Assembly (NCBI GenBank): GCA_022072615.1
Contig: JAJVHS010000012.1
Span: forward strand, 37,991 to 93,229
Direction of reading: 5' to 3'
Source: Phycisphaerales bacterium
Lineage (GTDB): Bacteria; Planctomycetota; Phycisphaerae; Phycisphaerales; UBA1924
DNA: 55,239 bases
Made by a program: the position numbers and the translations under genes
In this document: in pieces, positions 8,326-38,833 of the stretch
Position numbering within the stretch: position 1 is the first letter of the stretch
Layout: each line of letters begins with the position of its first letter
Notes under the pieces: generated by a model
What the model was told of the DNA's origin: nothing
The model's input: the letters and a program-made list of their open reading frames with translations, nothing else
Database searches by the model: none

Positions 8326-8476
8326 TTCGCGGGCGCATCTGCGGGACACTTTGCCCAGTCAGCTTGCTCAGACGATCGCCTTCTTCCGGGCGCCGGGCGC
8401 CAAAGTTCATGGATGAACGCGGGAGTGGACGACTGGATCGAGTCTGCGCGAGCGAGTGGACGGCAAAGGAACGCGG

Positions 8477-8767
8477 ATGAATCGCAGCAATCCGGCGGAA
8501 GTCTTGAGGGACAGCGTCGATGCTCGGCGGAAGGCCGAGGACCTTCTCCGGGGCCTGCTCGAGGCGAAATCGCAGACCGAGTCATTCCTCGCCGAGGGCG
8601 GGCGTGAAGATCCGGTGAAGAGCCTGACCGGCCGGTCGGCCATCGACAACGCGATCAACTCCACCAAACGGATGATCGACACCCTTGATCGGGCGATCGA
8701 GCAGGTTCGGCGCGAGCTCGACCAGGATGACTGGGTCGAGATCGGCGACGCCGTCGAAGCCCGCTGA
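8477..8767 (+). CDS. Small conserved-looking helical protein of unknown function
   Basis: A 96-residue, charged, mostly helical protein without cysteines, signal peptide or membrane segment. The ATG at 8477 has AAAGGA at 8465-8470 six bases upstream and is preferred over an in-frame GTG at 8456. Heptad-like spacing of Leu/Ile between residues about 60 and 85 (STKRMIDTLDRAIEQVRREL) suggests a coiled coil or helical bundle. It lies 150 bp after the CapD-like gene and converges on the first PilZ gene, ending 20 bp from that gene's stop. I do not recognise a family; codon use and the ribosome binding site support a real gene. Confidence 0.7.
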   Translation: MNRSNPAEVLRDSVDARRKAEDLLRGLLEAKSQTESFLAEGGREDPVKSLTGRSAIDNAINSTKRMIDTLDRAIEQVRRELDQDDWVEIGDAVEAR

Positions 8768-8787: not shown

Positions 8788-9963
8788 CTAATCGATCTTG
8801 GCCCGCGTGTTCTGGCAGGTGATGATGAGCCTGCGCACCGCGCCGACCGACTCCTCGAGGCTCATGGTCGAGATGATCGCCGCCTCCGCCTGGCGGGCGA
8901 GCTCGGAGAGCTTCTCGAAACCCACAAGCGGCGCGACGCCGGCGATCTGCTGGCAGAAGACCAGGCACTGGTCGAGGCTTGACGCTCGGACCGCTTCCTC
9001 GAGTTTCTTCGCCTGCGCATGCACCTCGTTGATGAAGCTGTCCACGAGCATCGCGGAGGGGTGGCCGGCGGGAAGCGAGGTGCTCGTGAGCCCCTTGCCG
9101 TCGTCCATCATGATGAACTCGGCGATGGCCTGGAGCAGGACGCTCTGGGTGAAGGGCTTGGAGATGTAGGCTTCGAGGTTGTGCTTCTCGCGCGACGGCG
9201 GCTTGATCTTCTGCGTGGTGAAGGGCAGGATCACGATCACCGGTGAGGCGACCCCCGACTGGCGAAGCTGGGGGAGGATTGAGCTGTCGGGCCTGGCGGC
9301 GCTCTCGGCCTCGCAGATAATCAGGTCAACGCCGGCCAGCGCCTTGGCGATGACGTCCTCGGGCTTGGCGATGATGTGCAGTCGGACCTGCGTCTCGCGC
9401 AGGTAGTGCCTCATCAGCCGCTGATCGAGCTCCGACCGGGTGACGTAGATCAACGTGCCGCGGAGCGTGCCGGGGTCGACGCGTTCCAGCGAGAACGCCC
9501 CGGCCTGCGGGGAGAGCTCGACGAAATCCGCGATCTTGACCGGCGCATCGAACTTGATGCCGACCTCGTGAACGATGCCCGAGAGGTGCGAGCACCTGGC
9601 GAGCGTGCCCTTGACCGTGACCTCCGTTCCGTCGTTGTGCGGGAGCGTGACCTCGCAGCGGCTGCCGGGGTAGAGGTAGGAGCTGTGCAGCACGCTCACG
9701 CCGCCGCACGAGAGATTCCGGCAGGCGACGCGGACCGACGCCTTGGAACCGCCCAGGTGCGAGACCGTCAGCGGCAGGTGCAGGTGGCGGAAGGGCCAGC
9801 GGACGTACTGGCGGTTGGAGACGGCGTGCTGTCCGTCGCGGCGGTCGAGCTCGTCGAGCAGCGCGTTGAGCTTGGCCATGTCCAGCCGCACCGAGTTCGA
9901 CACCGCGGCGTTGGCGGGCGAGTTGGGACGGGCATCGCCGGTCGGGGCCTTGGTCGTGGACAT
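8788..9963 (-). CDS. PilZ-domain protein with pseudo-receiver and Hpt-like tail, paralogue 1 (Glu at phosphosite)
   Basis: A 391-residue protein; the ATG at 9963 has GGAG nine bases upstream. Residues about 45-145 are a PilZ domain with the c-di-GMP contacts intact: RQYVR (Arg51, Arg55) and NLSCGG (from Asn83). Residues about 168-285 follow the alternating pattern of a response-regulator receiver, but the N-terminal acidic pair is absent and the phosphoacceptor position is Glu218 (LIICEAES); the Lys-Pro near the end (Lys269) is kept. Residues about 305-391 resemble an Hpt four-helix bundle (AGVAPLVGF, then L..LARQAEA), but the histidine position is Gln338. It is the last of three tandem paralogues. 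Expected behaviour is c-di-GMP sensing without true phosphotransfer (inference). Confidence 0.8.
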   Translation of the reverse strand: MSTTKAPTGDARPNSPANAAVSNSVRLDMAKLNALLDELDRRDGQHAVSNRQYVRWPFRHLHLPLTVSHLGGSKASVRVACRNLSCGGVSVLHSSYLYPGSRCEVTLPHNDGTEVTVKGTLARCSHLSGIVHEVGIKFDAPVKIADFVELSPQAGAFSLERVDPGTLRGTLIYVTRSELDQRLMRHYLRETQVRLHIIAKPEDVIAKALAGVDLIICEAESAARPDSSILPQLRQSGVASPVIVILPFTTQKIKPPSREKHNLEAYISKPFTQSVLLQAIAEFIMMDDGKGLTSTSLPAGHPSAMLVDSFINEVHAQAKKLEEAVRASSLDQCLVFCQQIAGVAPLVGFEKLSELARQAEAAIISTMSLEESVGAVRRLIITCQNTRAKID

Positions 9964-10132
9964 CCGCGGTTTCTCCGATGGCGTGTGAAGTTCAGGGTCG
10001 CCGGCTGTGGAATCGGACGTGCGGGTCGCGCGGTTCAACGGTCAAACCGGCCGGCGGCCCGTCGATCGCCGGGCGGGCGTCCCGGATCAACTGGCGCACG
10101 TGCGCCGCTGGTTCTGGGACGTGGGACCGCGC

Positions 10133-11290
10133 CTACCGCGTCCGGGCCTTCATGCAGGCCGAGATCAGGTGATGGAGATCGAGCGCCGCGTCCTGCACGC
10201 GCATGGTCGCCACCAGCGCGGCCTCGGCGCGTCGAGCCACGCTTGACATGCCCTCGAACCCGACCAGCGGCGCGATGCCGGTGATCTTGCGGCACAGCGC
10301 CAGGCACGCCTCGGCCTGGCGAGCGCGGACGGCCTGGTCGAGGCTCTCGGCGTGCCTGCGGACTTCCTCGACGAAGCTCTCGGCGAGATAGAACGACGGG
10401 TCGTGCGGTTCGAGCGAGGAGATGGTCAGCCCCTTCTGGGCTCCGCCGCGCATGAGCCCGGCGATGACCTGGAGGAGCGTGCGGTCGGAGATGGGCCGGA
10501 CGAGGGTGGCGTCGGCCTTGAGGCGGGTGGAGGGGTGCATCGACGTGGCCGTTTCGCTGGAGACCAGCACGACCATCGGCGCGCTGAACCCGCTGGACCG
10601 GAGCCGCTCGCTCGCCGGGGGTTCGGTCGCGACGTCGAAGTCCGCGTCCAGGAAGATGAAGTCGATCGACTTGGGCGAGAGCTTCACCGCGTCGTCGACG
10701 GTCGCGACGGAGCGCATCTCGAGCCCGGTGTCGCGGAGGTAATGGCCGATGACCTGGCTGTCGAGTTCGCTGGCGCCGCAGAGCAGGAGCTGGCCGCTGA
10801 GCGCCGCCTTGTCGACCCGTTCGATGGAGAGCACGTCCACCTGCCGCGTATCGGCGATGAAGTCTCCGACCCGGACCTCGCGGTCGAACTTGATGCCGAT
10901 CTCGTGGACGATCCCGCTGACGTGCGTGCAGCGGGCGATGATGCCCTGGAGCTCGATCGTGCCGCCGTCGCACTTGGGGATGGCGACCACGCACTCGTTC
11001 TTGGGGTGCAGGAACGCGTTGTGCAGGACCGAGAGGCCGCCGCAGGAGATGTTCCGCGACGCGACGCCGATCGACGCTCGCGACCCGCCGGAGTGAGTCA
11101 CGATCATCTGCACCCACGGGTGCCGGAAAGGCCAGCGGACGTACTGGCGGTTGGCCTTCCCGGCGCCGCCCTCGCGGGCATCGAGGAGGTCGAGCAGTTT
11201 GCCGAGCCGAGCCGGGTCGAGTCGGAGACTGTTCTGCCTGCGAGAGGCGTCGCTCGCTGGAGCATCTCTGGCCGGTGCGTGTTCTGTCAT
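10133..11290 (-). CDS. PilZ-domain protein with pseudo-receiver and Hpt-like tail, paralogue 2 (Asp retained)
   Basis: A 385-residue protein; the ATG at 11290 is preceded by GAGGGAAG with good spacing. The PilZ domain (about 45-145) keeps RQYVR (Arg49, Arg53) and NISCGG (from Asn80). The receiver-like segment (about 165-280) retains Asp215 at the usual phosphoacceptor position (FIFLDADF), but lacks the N-terminal acidic pair and has Arg265 where receivers have Lys. The C-terminal Hpt-like bundle (about 300-385) has Arg334 in place of the phosphorylatable His. The same domain order and the linker SSL..HDPS are shared with its two neighbours, so the genes arose by tandem duplication. Of the three, only this copy might accept a phosphoryl group at an Asp. 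Confidence 0.8.
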   Translation of the reverse strand: MTEHAPARDAPASDASRRQNSLRLDPARLGKLLDLLDAREGGAGKANRQYVRWPFRHPWVQMIVTHSGGSRASIGVASRNISCGGLSVLHNAFLHPKNECVVAIPKCDGGTIELQGIIARCTHVSGIVHEIGIKFDREVRVGDFIADTRQVDVLSIERVDKAALSGQLLLCGASELDSQVIGHYLRDTGLEMRSVATVDDAVKLSPKSIDFIFLDADFDVATEPPASERLRSSGFSAPMVVLVSSETATSMHPSTRLKADATLVRPISDRTLLQVIAGLMRGGAQKGLTISSLEPHDPSFYLAESFVEEVRRHAESLDQAVRARQAEACLALCRKITGIAPLVGFEGMSSVARRAEAALVATMRVQDAALDLHHLISACMKARTR

Positions 11291-11485
11291 GGCTTCCCTC
11301 GGTTGCGACAAGCCAAGTCCATGGTCGGACCAGTTGTTTCGTCGTTTCCGAGGGTCGTTCGCAGCGGGTGGAGCGAGGGCGTTCACCGGCCGGCTCGGCG
11401 GGGCGGGGTTGTACCGTCTGGAGAAGAACCGAGCGTCCGGGAAGCAATGAAGTTTTTACCGCATGTGAATATCCGCTGGAGGTTT

Positions 11486-12646
11486 TCAGGCGGCGGCGCG
11501 CGCACGCAGGCACGCGGTCAGGAGCTGGTGCAGGTCGTTGGCCGCCGCGTCCACGCGCCCCGCCGAGGCCAGCGTCGACTCGGCGCGGCGGGCGATCGCG
11601 GACATTCCATCAAAGCCCACCATGGGCGCGATGCCGGCGATCTGCCGGCACACGGCCATGCACGCCTCCTTTTCTGCCGTCCGCAGCGCCGATTCGAGCT
11701 GGCTTGCTTGGCGGCGGACCTCGTGCACGAAGCTGGGCACGAGACACTGCGACGGATGGTCGGCGGGGAGTGAAGAGAGGAACACGCCCCTGCCGGTTTC
11801 ACGCATCAGCCCGGTGATAACCCGGAGCAGCGACTTCTCCTCGACCGGTGTCGTCAGCACCGAGTCGGCTTTCAGCCGCGTGGATGGATGGATTGATGCG
11901 ACGCCATGGTCCGGGCTGAGGATCACGATCGGCGCACTGACCTCGCTGGAGCGGAGCCGCTCGGTGAGCGAGGGCTCGACGGAGAAATCCATGGCGGCCG
12001 AGAGCAGCAGCAGCGAGCGATCCCTCATGAGGGCTGCCCGGATCTGGTCGGGTGTCGTCGCGGTGGAGATGGTGAGCCCGGTCTCCCGCAGGTGGAACCT
12101 GACAAGCTGGGACTCCATCTCCGAGGCGCCGGCGATGACAAGGTTGCCCGAGAGGGACGCGGGATCGACACGCTCGACCGAACGGATCTCCGCCTCCGGC
12201 CCCAGATCGATAAAGTCGGCGATGTTGAGCTCGGACGAGAACTTGATGCCGACCTCGTGGACGACGCCGCTGAGGTGGACGCAGCGAGCGATGGTCCCGC
12301 TCACGATCGCGGCGGGCCCGGACCGCCGCGGGAGCGAGATATGGCACGTGCTCCCCGAATGGACGTAGGCCGAGTGCAGGACGCTCAGCCCGCCGCCCGA
12401 GAGGTTGCGGCAGGCAACGGAGATCGAGGTTCGCGAGCCGTCGATCTGGATGATGGTGAGCGGCAGGCAGACGTGCCGGAACGGCCAGCGAACGGACTTT
12501 CGACGGGTGACCTTTCCCTGATCCTCGCGTGCGTCGAGCAGGTCAAACAGCTTGCATAGCCGGACGAGGTCGAGGCGGACGGAATTCGCGCGGGCGTCGT
12601 GCGACCCGGCGGCCGGTTTATATGCTGTTCGTATCGAAGACGGCAT
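11486..12646 (-). CDS. PilZ-domain protein with pseudo-receiver and Hpt-like tail, paralogue 3 (Ser at phosphosite)
   Basis: A 386-residue protein. The frame is open far upstream, but that part lies opposite the beta-propeller gene; I place the start at the ATG 12646, with AAGGGGG just upstream and a length matching the two paralogues. The PilZ domain keeps RKSVR (Arg49, Arg53) and NLSGGG (from Asn81). In the receiver-like segment (about 167-281) Ser216 occupies the phosphoacceptor position and Thr266 replaces Lys. The Hpt-like tail has Arg334 for His. It is the first gene of the minus-strand trio, with about 195 bp to the next copy and its likely promoter in 12647-12815. Confidence 0.78.
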   Translation of the reverse strand: MPSSIRTAYKPAAGSHDARANSVRLDLVRLCKLFDLLDAREDQGKVTRRKSVRWPFRHVCLPLTIIQIDGSRTSISVACRNLSGGGLSVLHSAYVHSGSTCHISLPRRSGPAAIVSGTIARCVHLSGVVHEVGIKFSSELNIADFIDLGPEAEIRSVERVDPASLSGNLVIAGASEMESQLVRFHLRETGLTISTATTPDQIRAALMRDRSLLLLSAAMDFSVEPSLTERLRSSEVSAPIVILSPDHGVASIHPSTRLKADSVLTTPVEEKSLLRVITGLMRETGRGVFLSSLPADHPSQCLVPSFVHEVRRQASQLESALRTAEKEACMAVCRQIAGIAPMVGFDGMSAIARRAESTLASAGRVDAAANDLHQLLTACLRARAAA

Positions 12647-12815: not shown

Positions 12816-13880
12816 ATGTCCGACACGCCGACTCCGAATTCCGCCGCCGCGCCGTCCCGCCGAGGGTTTCTCAGGACCATGGCGGCGGCCGGGCTCGCCG
12901 GTTCGGTCGCGCCCTTTGTGCGCGCGTCCAATAAGTCCGGGCTCGAACCGATCATCGTCGGAACCGGCGAGTACACGTTCGAGGTCATCCACGACTGGGG
13001 CACGCTTCCCAAGTCGATGTCGTACGGGAACACGCACGGCGTGTGCGAGACGGCGTCGGGGAACATCCTGATAAAGCACACGGTGGGCGGCGACCCGGAG
13101 TGCAAGGACGCGGTGGTTGAGTACGACGCCAAGGGCACATTCGTGCGCAGCTGGGGGTCGGAGTTCCGCGGCGGCGCCCATGGGCTGCACCTGGCGCGCG
13201 ACGGGTCTGACGATGTGCTGTATCTGTGCGATCCCAACCGCGGGCTGGTCGTGAAGACCGACGTGCGGGGGAACGAGATCTGGCAGCGGGGCTGCCCGGT
13301 GGAGTCGGGGCTCTACAACAACCCCGGCGAGTACAAGCCGACCAACGTCGCGGTCGCCGCCGACGGGACGGTGTACGTGGGCGACGGGTACGGCAAGAGC
13401 TGGCTTCACATCTACAAGCCCGACGGCACCTACGTCCGGTCCTTCGGCGGACCGGGCAACCAGCGGGGCCAGGTCTCCTGCCCGCACGGGCTGGCGATCG
13501 ATGCGCGGTCCGGCGTCGAGCGGCTGGTGGTCGCCGACCGGTCCAACCGCCGGCTGCAGTACTTCACGCTCGACGGGCGGCACGACGGGTTTGTGACCGA
13601 TGAGATGCGGGCACCGTGCCATTTCCATTTCCACGGGTCGGCGATGGTGGTGCCGGACCTCGAGGGCCGGGTCACGATCCTGGACAAGGACAACAAGCTG
13701 ATCGCGCACCTGTGCGACGGCTGGACGGACAAGGGTTTCGAGCTGCGGGACAAGCCGCGCGATCGATTCGTCCCGGGCAAGTTCATCGCTCCGCACAGCG
13801 CGATCTTTGATCACGAGGGCAACATCTTCGTTGTCGAATGGGTCGAGGTGGGCCGGGTGACCAAGCTCCGCAGGGTGTGA
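12816..13880 (+). CDS. Tat-exported NHL/six-bladed beta-propeller protein
   Basis: A 354-residue protein. Residues 14-22, SRRGFLRTM, are a twin-arginine signal followed by a short hydrophobic stretch, so the folded protein should be exported by the Tat route. The rest is built from NHL-type repeats: GAHGLHLARDG, NVAVAADGTVYVGDGYG, CPHGLAIDARSG and SAIFDHEGNIFVVEW each mark one blade, and the spacing fits a six-bladed propeller. Close relatives are often annotated as peptidyl-alpha-hydroxyglycine lyase-like or 6-bladed beta-propeller proteins; I see no basis for a specific enzyme activity. It is divergent from the PilZ trio. Confidence 0.85.
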   Translation: MSDTPTPNSAAAPSRRGFLRTMAAAGLAGSVAPFVRASNKSGLEPIIVGTGEYTFEVIHDWGTLPKSMSYGNTHGVCETASGNILIKHTVGGDPECKDAVVEYDAKGTFVRSWGSEFRGGAHGLHLARDGSDDVLYLCDPNRGLVVKTDVRGNEIWQRGCPVESGLYNNPGEYKPTNVAVAADGTVYVGDGYGKSWLHIYKPDGTYVRSFGGPGNQRGQVSCPHGLAIDARSGVERLVVADRSNRRLQYFTLDGRHDGFVTDEMRAPCHFHFHGSAMVVPDLEGRVTILDKDNKLIAHLCDGWTDKGFELRDKPRDRFVPGKFIAPHSAIFDHEGNIFVVEWVEVGRVTKLRRV

Positions 13881-37570: not shown

Positions 37571-38833
37571 ATGAAGACCGCGGGCAAGACGAGCTTTCCG
37601 AAGGCCAGCATCCGGGTCGTGCTCCTGGAAGGGATTCATCCGCGGGGGGCCGAGTTGCTGCGGCAGGAAGGGTTCCAGGTGGAGCTGCTTCCCAAGGCGC
37701 TCGAGGGCTCGGCGCTGCACAAGGCGATCGCGGGCGCGCACGTCCTGGGCATCCGTTCCAAGACGCAGGTCGATGCCGCGGCGCTCAAGGCGGCGCAGCG
37801 CCTCCTGGCGGTGGGGTGCTTCTGCATCGGCACCAACCAGGTGGATTTGAGCTCGGCGTGCCAGGCGGGCGTGCCGGTCTTCAACTCGCCGTTCAGCAAC
37901 ACCCGCAGCGTGGCGGAACTGACAATCGCCGAGGCGATCGCGCTGTGCCGGCAGATGACCGAGAAATCACGCAAGATGCACGCGGGCGAGTGGGACAAGT
38001 CGGCCGAGGGGTCGCACGAGGTGCGTGGCCGGACGATCGGCATCGTGGGGTACGGGCGGATCGGGTCCCAGGTGTCCGTGCTCGCCGAGGCCATGGGCAT
38101 GCGGGTGGTGTTCTACGACATTCTCCCGCGGCTTGCGCTTGGCAATGCCCGGGGGTGCCGGTCGCTGGGCGAGCTGCTCGAGCAGTCGGACATCGTGACG
38201 CTGCACGTGCCCGCGACGGACCAGACGGAGGGAATGATCGGGAAGGCCGAGCTGCGCAAGATGAAGAAGGGCGCGATGCTGATCAACAACGCCCGCGGCG
38301 GGGTTGTTGACATCCCGGCCCTGGCCGCGGCGCTGTCGTCGGGCCACCTGTCGGGCGCGGCCTTGGACGTGTTCCCCGTCGAGCCGGTGGGCAAGGGCGA
38401 GCCGTTCAAGAGCGAGGTGTGCGGGCTTCCCAACGTGATCCTGACGCCGCACGTGGGCGGGAGCACCGAGGAGGCGCAGGAATCCATCGCGGAGGACGTC
38501 GCCACCAAGTTCATCAAGTTCGTGAACGTGGGAACGACGACAGGGGCCGTGAACGTGCCCGAGGTGGAACTGCCCCCGCAGGCCGAACGGGACGGCCCGG
38601 GCAAGGGGCCCCGGCGGCACAGGATTCTTCACTTCCACCGGAACGTGCCGGGTGTGCTCAGCGCGATGCACGGCGAGATCGCGCGGCTGGGGGCGAATAT
38701 CTCGGCCGAGTACCTGCAGACCAACAAGGACATCGGGTACGTGGTGCTCGACGTCGACCCCACCGACGGATCGAAGGTAATGGAGAGCGTGCGGTCGATT
38801 CCGGAGACAATCCGCGTGCGGATGCTGTGGTAA
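37571..38833 (+). CDS. serA: D-3-phosphoglycerate dehydrogenase with C-terminal ACT domain
   Basis: A 420-residue protein from ATG 37571. The D-2-hydroxyacid dehydrogenase fold shows RTIGIVGYGRIGSQ (NAD-binding glycines, about 155-167), NNARGGVVD (catalytic Arg region) and LTPHVGGSTEEAQ (catalytic His, about 297). The last ~80 residues, beginning HFHRNVPGVLSAMHGEI, form an ACT domain, as in the short E. coli-type enzymes whose serine feedback control acts there. It oxidises 3-phosphoglycerate in the first committed step of serine synthesis. It follows uppP by 31 bp, in the same direction, and converges on asnB. Confidence 0.92.
   Translation: MKTAGKTSFPKASIRVVLLEGIHPRGAELLRQEGFQVELLPKALEGSALHKAIAGAHVLGIRSKTQVDAAALKAAQRLLAVGCFCIGTNQVDLSSACQAGVPVFNSPFSNTRSVAELTIAEAIALCRQMTEKSRKMHAGEWDKSAEGSHEVRGRTIGIVGYGRIGSQVSVLAEAMGMRVVFYDILPRLALGNARGCRSLGELLEQSDIVTLHVPATDQTEGMIGKAELRKMKKGAMLINNARGGVVDIPALAAALSSGHLSGAALDVFPVEPVGKGEPFKSEVCGLPNVILTPHVGGSTEEAQESIAEDVATKFIKFVNVGTTTGAVNVPEVELPPQAERDGPGKGPRRHRILHFHRNVPGVLSAMHGEIARLGANISAEYLQTNKDIGYVVLDVDPTDGSKVMESVRSIPETIRVRMLW

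Follow-up and report, generated by a model that had tools for sequence, protein, structure and literature searches.

Three tandem PilZ proteins of a Phycisphaerales bacterium carry receiver and Hpt folds predicted to be inactive in phosphorelay

The window analyzed here (55,239 nucleotides; positions 37,991 to 93,229 of contig JAJVHS010000012.1, GenBank assembly GCA_022072615.1, from a Phycisphaerales bacterium) contains an array of three adjacent minus-strand genes, named c, b and a in reading order (Table 1). Their products share one order of parts: a PilZ domain, a receiver fold and a histidine phosphotransfer (Hpt) fold; b is 40 percent identical to a and 47 percent identical to c. Judged from sequence, the PilZ part keeps its contacts for cyclic di-GMP (c-di-GMP) and the phosphorelay half is dead, which is the main point of these proteins and one that a first-pass annotation of this DNA overlooked. 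That annotation had described tandem same-strand paralogs of common domain order with intact PilZ contacts and with receiver-like and Hpt-like segments, all of which the open reading frames, the alignment and the recovered folds bear out. We tentatively propose, at somewhat less than even confidence, that the proteins are c-di-GMP-responsive adaptors that bind phosphorelay partners without carrying phosphate themselves.

Conservation was read column by column from one profile, in which 136 full-length rows became 71 after dereplication at 95 percent; this table required aligned PilZ, receiver and Hpt parts and excluded partial forms and unfetched matches. The four-helix Hpt fold was recovered. 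At the position of the phosphoaccepting histidine, a has Gln and b and c have Arg, and none of the three has the HxxKG pattern. Among the 71 members, the column holds His in 1 and HxxKG in none, compared with His in 16/17 and HxxKG in 12/17 non-family Hpt rows read in the same profile, a control set that was retrieved with the family's own profile, contains near relatives (L064, L065 and L069; L068 and L070) and includes one stand-alone Hpt, that of the window's own genome. The control set started from 18 non-family rows with a residue at the Hpt column, of which one without an Hpt pattern (L057 2127-3401) was dropped. The lone family histidine (L113 8940-10154) lies within HEIRT in a copy whose receiver is without its entire site; because of this context and the wholly lost receiver site, we read it as chance. 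G338 (b numbering, as for all residues below), the glycine four positions after the lost histidine (H+4), is kept in 45/71 members. In yeast Ypd1, substitutions of the H+4 glycine impair transfer while binding is only modestly reduced (PMC6341664). Retention of G338 fits an inherited docking face, which is not proof of docking.

The receiver fold is firm in the fold search, with scores to PF00072 of 13.1 (a), 17.8 (b) and 12.9 bits (c), below the cut-off of 30.2. None of the three has a complete phosphorylation site. The acidic pair, Asp and Lys positions read TR/E/K in a, which has Glu in place of Asp and keeps Lys; GA/D/R in b, which keeps Asp but has Gly-Ala for the acidic pair and Arg for Lys; and GA/S/T in c, in which Ser and Thr replace Asp and Lys. 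Although b keeps the Asp, it has lost the acidic pair, and from receiver chemistry we do not expect it to bind the metal required for phosphorylation. Across the 71 members, Asp is present in 44, Lys in 55 and the complete site (acidic pair, Asp and Lys) in 18. The clade of the window proteins comprises 15 rows, 8 in the clade of a and 7 in that of b and c, and an acid is found at either acidic-pair position in 0/15. As neither the Hpt histidine nor the acidic pair of the receiver is present, we rejected a role as phosphorelay carrier, and the window proteins are unlikely to carry phosphate.

RxxxR and [D/N]xSxxG are the PilZ contact motifs. RxxxR and NxSxxG are intact in a, b and c, and the contacts are kept in 70 (R48), 71 (R52), 71 (R79), 71 (N/D80), 70 (S82) and 70 (G85) of the 71 members. 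The PilZ Pfam model matched 28/55 members at E ≤ 0.01, and a profile search of solved chains ranked the PilZ-type protein YpfA third (E 0.14); the rows of the whole-chain fold search were receivers or receiver-containing chains and are uninformative on PilZ. From what is known of the PilZ family, a, b and c likely bind c-di-GMP through this domain.

The dead tail is clearly constrained in the clades of the window proteins. Mean pairwise identity is 69 percent for PilZ, 63 for the receiver and 65 for Hpt in the clade of a, and 59, 37 and 46 percent in that of b and c. Residues C333, Q335, A337, G338, P341 and G344 are invariant in the clade of a, where position 334, that of the lost histidine, is Q or R. 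In a midpoint-rooted FastTree tree of the 71 members, which has many weak deep nodes, a groups with P0007, P0008 and P0010-P0014 (support 1.00), and b is grouped with c and P0004, a close relative of c, (0.99) inside another clade (0.96). Tandem copies are sisters in G046 (1.00), G030 (1.00) and G033 (0.96), which indicates repeated duplication. Complete receiver sites are scattered in both halves of the tree (10/51 and 8/20), and on this weakly supported tree Fitch parsimony gives a 'complete' root with 13 changes and Dollo parsimony gives 19 losses. Because HxxKG occurs nowhere and complete receivers are scattered, loss of the Hpt histidine probably predates the common ancestor, whereas the receiver site was lost later and many times.

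Since the receiver and Hpt parts are without the residues for phosphate passage, we expect these proteins to act by binding a partner, not by relaying phosphate. Binding of c-di-GMP to PilZ would alter docking of the dead tail onto the receiver or Hpt domain of the partner, and the altered docking would raise or lower phosphate flux in the partner's relay. We expect docking on phosphorelay proteins because the fold is retained and the face that once bore the active site is conserved. This adaptor reading resembles the action of HapZ on SagS and HptB. HapZ (PA2799 of Pseudomonas aeruginosa) is a PilZ protein reported to inhibit the SagS-to-HptB transfer step, more so with c-di-GMP bound (PMC10333796); the likeness thus covers PilZ, c-di-GMP and a hybrid-kinase-to-Hpt step (PMC10333796, PMC12564702). 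Compared by description only, HapZ is listed as a PilZ domain protein, whereas the window proteins fuse PilZ to a dead receiver-Hpt tail of their own.

A candidate partner is found in the window's own genome (4.4 Mb, 104 contigs, 92 percent complete), where a search with b at E ≤ 1 matched no genes other than a, b and c. This genome has four GGDEF matches and two Hpt matches besides the window genes, one in a CheA-type protein that also has CheW and receiver domains and one a stand-alone, His-bearing Hpt adjoining a receiver-GGDEF gene (L071 1453-2861, C12 of the own genome). These two genes stood together in 10/10 loci read, those of the 10 best Hpt matches, and the pair is likely a phosphorelay to a diguanylate cyclase. 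As the genome's sole Hpt outside the CheA-type protein and the array, the stand-alone Hpt could be the partner, in which case a feedback loop on c-di-GMP synthesis would result. Such an Hpt and receiver-GGDEF protein might form a relay to a diguanylate cyclase with a hybrid kinase that has no Hpt of its own, and a protein combining an intact PilZ domain with a dead receiver-Hpt pair would be in a good position to gate this relay. In its broadest form, which we regard as unlikely, the proposal would make the family a decoy class of Phycisphaerales: PilZ proteins would have captured a receiver-Hpt tail, killed its chemistry and put the dead pair to use in blocking or gating a relay from hybrid kinase through Hpt to receiver-GGDEF protein, c-di-GMP would throttle its own synthesis, and the tandem copies would be specific for different relays.

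Several results weigh against the adaptor reading. PilZ exceeds its Pfam cut-off (PF07238) in only one of the three window proteins (c, 25.1 bits against 22.5; a and b had no listed match), and the matches listed by a PilZ search of the own genome did not include the window genes. Over all 71 rows, Hpt is the least conserved part (mean pairwise identity: PilZ 38, receiver 27, Hpt 24 percent), so constraint on the tail is clear inside the window's clades and weaker family-wide. A GGDEF-linked Hpt was matched in 52 of 61 genomes of the order (the own genome and 60 relatives), in 39/46 bearing the family and 13/15 lacking it (Fisher p = 1), counts that take in kinase Hpts and family tails; as this shows no association, co-occurrence was not counted in favor of a feedback loop. 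The comparisons also give a mixed picture of where the tail came from. Single-protein scores placed the hybrid-kinase profile over the GGDEF-linked one for the receiver in 70/71 members and for Hpt in 63/71; in profile-profile comparison, the receiver was again nearer the hybrid kinases (190.8 vs 121.0), and Hpt was nearer the GGDEF-linked Hpts (114.0 vs 97.6 for hybrid kinase), with a hybrid-kinase set that was itself drawn with the family's profile. The receiver thus favors a hybrid-kinase origin twice, and the Hpt comparisons conflict.

Alternatively, the proteins may be response-regulator-like switches, in which receiver phosphorylation (for members whose site is complete) or phosphate-independent dimerization is integrated with c-di-GMP binding, Hpt being no more than a structural cap. 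We consider this possible but rather unlikely. The fold of the receiver is firm, the 18/71 complete sites and the 'complete' Fitch root are as this explanation would have it, and the receiver is slightly above Hpt in conservation over the 71 members. In the window's own clade, however, absence of the acidic pair from 15/15 rows makes phosphorylation of these proteins unlikely, and Hpt is there the better conserved of the two, both in the clade of a (65 vs 63 percent) and in that of b and c (46 vs 37 percent).

The first-pass annotation took a CapD-like neighbor as a sign of c-di-GMP control over polysaccharide or surface functions. The gene in question (Polysacc_synt_2, E 1.1e-92) is the second beyond the array, after a 103-amino-acid open reading frame; both are convergent with the array, whose opposite flank has a divergent NHL-repeat gene. 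In the genus, 3 genomes retain the linkage to the CapD-like gene, yet its convergent orientation and the wider context make an effector working with this enzyme quite unlikely. We examined 41 context stretches (the window, 36 around family genes of relatives and 4 elsewhere in the own genome), and a family gene was called in 35, the simple gene caller having missed two (L096 and L119). A clustered capD homolog was present in 3 of the 35, all from the window's genus, and absent from 32; the commonest neighbor was gyrB, the immediate same-strand upstream gene in 15/35. Because capD is rare near the family and gyrB frequent, the polysaccharide inference is unsupported. By coordinates, the gyrB pair occurs in 15/46 family-bearing genomes, with contig ends masking some. 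More than one copy was called in 12 stretches, in one of which (L099) the apparent copies are parts of one gene interrupted by a stop.

It is very unlikely that the pseudo-receiver itself binds c-di-GMP, as in ShkA or Cle of Caulobacter, with PilZ as one of two sites. Pseudo-receivers that bind c-di-GMP do exist (PMC10333796), but in both clades of the window proteins conservation is lowest in the receiver. Also disfavored, and the least probable explanation of all, is that these are non-functional degenerate duplicates: receiver-site losses are many and some copies carry in-frame stops, but frames are open in most matches, PilZ contacts persist in 70-71/71 members, the three domains are 63-69 percent identical in the clade of a, and linkage to gyrB recurs.

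Related cases include proteins whose signaling domains lost their usual chemistry. AHP6, a plant pseudo-HPt, has the Hpt fold without the histidine and is thought to be a decoy; it is free-standing, with neither PilZ nor receiver. Hybrid histidine kinase tails have the same receiver-Hpt order and are matched by the family profile, but keep the histidine in the 16/17 non-family rows given above (one stand-alone Hpt included). Two of these non-family proteins, checked by Pfam, have a kinase ATPase domain and no PilZ, and the remainder were classed as kinases from frame length and tail alone. In Caulobacter, PopA and ShkA, with a degenerate GGDEF domain and a pseudo-receiver, respectively, are described as signaling domains without their usual chemistry that serve binding (PMC10333796); there the c-di-GMP site is in the degenerate domain, whereas in the window proteins c-di-GMP likely binds to PilZ, with the dead domains C-terminal to it.

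What is new is the fusion of PilZ, receiver and Hpt together with family-wide loss of the histidine, each single domain being already known. The first-pass annotation did not recognize the architecture, and neither did our searches: in Pfam and NCBIfam no model covers it and only single domains exceeded cut-offs, NCBIfam gave only response-regulator models far under their cut-offs for the window proteins, and no description appeared among the open-licence papers listed in our searches, those on PilZ in planctomycetes and Phycisphaerales listing one Myxococcus paper and none on the family. An intact c-di-GMP motif beside a chemically dead phosphorelay module in 46/61 genomes makes a clean natural case of pseudo-signaling domains kept for binding, and gives a testable link between second-messenger and phosphorelay signaling in planctomycetes. 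Censuses that discard Hpt sequences without the histidine would overlook such proteins; one did so for a portion of its set (PMC4558063).

Family genes are common within the order. The 46 bearing genomes, defined by matches to b at E ≤ 1e-5, include 34/37 within the window's taxonomic family and 12/24 elsewhere in the order. Each has 1-5 matches, some of them partial (PilZ or PilZ-receiver only), so that the triplicate state noted in the first annotation is true of the own genome and varies in others. In a survey of 294 genomes of the phylum, listed matches extending from PilZ into Hpt occurred in the window's taxonomic family (7/7) and in the order (4/8), and all those listed outside the order began in the receiver, no earlier than profile position 131; with at most six candidates scored per genome, this bounds absence outside the order and is no proof of it. 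A protein database search with b, which scored only the 7994 candidates sharing most words, retrieved 17 proteins, including a and b, and plasmid records contained no match to the family.

Table 1. Features of the array, in coordinates of the window
Feature	Position	Strand	Description
Gene a	8788..9963	-	391 aa; PilZ - pseudo-receiver - pseudo-Hpt
Gene a, Hpt-fold part	8812..9048	-	residues 306-384; Pfam match below cut-off
Gene a, receiver-fold part	9124..9423	-	residues 181-280; weak Pfam match
Gene b	10133..11290	-	385 aa; PilZ - receiver fold - Hpt fold
Gene b, four-helix Hpt-fold part	10145..10408	-	residues 295-382; 334 is the lost-histidine position
Gene b, receiver-fold part	10439..10801	-	residues 164-284
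Gene b, PilZ part	10853..11155	-	residues 46-146; RxxxR (R48, R52), NxSxxG (N80, S82, G85)
Gene c	11486..12646	-	386 aa; PilZ - receiver fold - Hpt fold
Gene c, Hpt-fold part	11495..11734	-	residues 305-384; above Pfam cut-off
Gene c, receiver-fold part	11816..12109	-	residues 180-277; weak Pfam match
Gene c, PilZ domain	12215..12505	-	residues 48-144; above Pfam cut-off

From these coordinates, the stop-to-ATG gaps within the array are 195 and 169 bases. The flanking 103-amino-acid frame (8456-8767, plus strand) has no Pfam or NCBIfam match and is kept beside gene a in three genomes of the genus. The NHL-repeat protein (12816-13880, plus strand) has a twin-arginine signal and a similarity to ScyF far below the cut-off of that model.

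In the window's genus (three genomes), the gene after gyrB encodes a hybrid kinase with CHASE4-HisKA-HATPase-receiver order and no listed Hpt (L135 4212-7292, L136 3784-6966 and L137 3528-6680), in the slot held by the family gene in 15 relatives. Of the 26 gyrB regions in which no family gene adjoins gyrB, 4 have a kinase like that of G008 downstream, 3 of them from the window's genus; in G008 the kinase is the second gene past gyrB. G046 has a fifth, weaker kinase match on the opposite side of gyrB, and the G033 region stops at gyrB. These regions are at most a hint of a positional swap of the family gene with a hybrid kinase after gyrB, a reading that we did not adopt.

One order-level relative has a 313-amino-acid frame with PilZ and receiver and no Hpt match (L054 1009-1947), perhaps an earlier or reduced form. 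In two species of one genus, the gyrB-linked family gene has an in-frame TAG at one shared site (L031 ~2305-2307 in G025 and L042 ~2311-2313 in G153), where other members have a conserved Arg preceding Cys; the frame is open before and after it. The stop is missing from two other species of this genus (L043 and L045). The common TAG may reflect shared decay or read-through.

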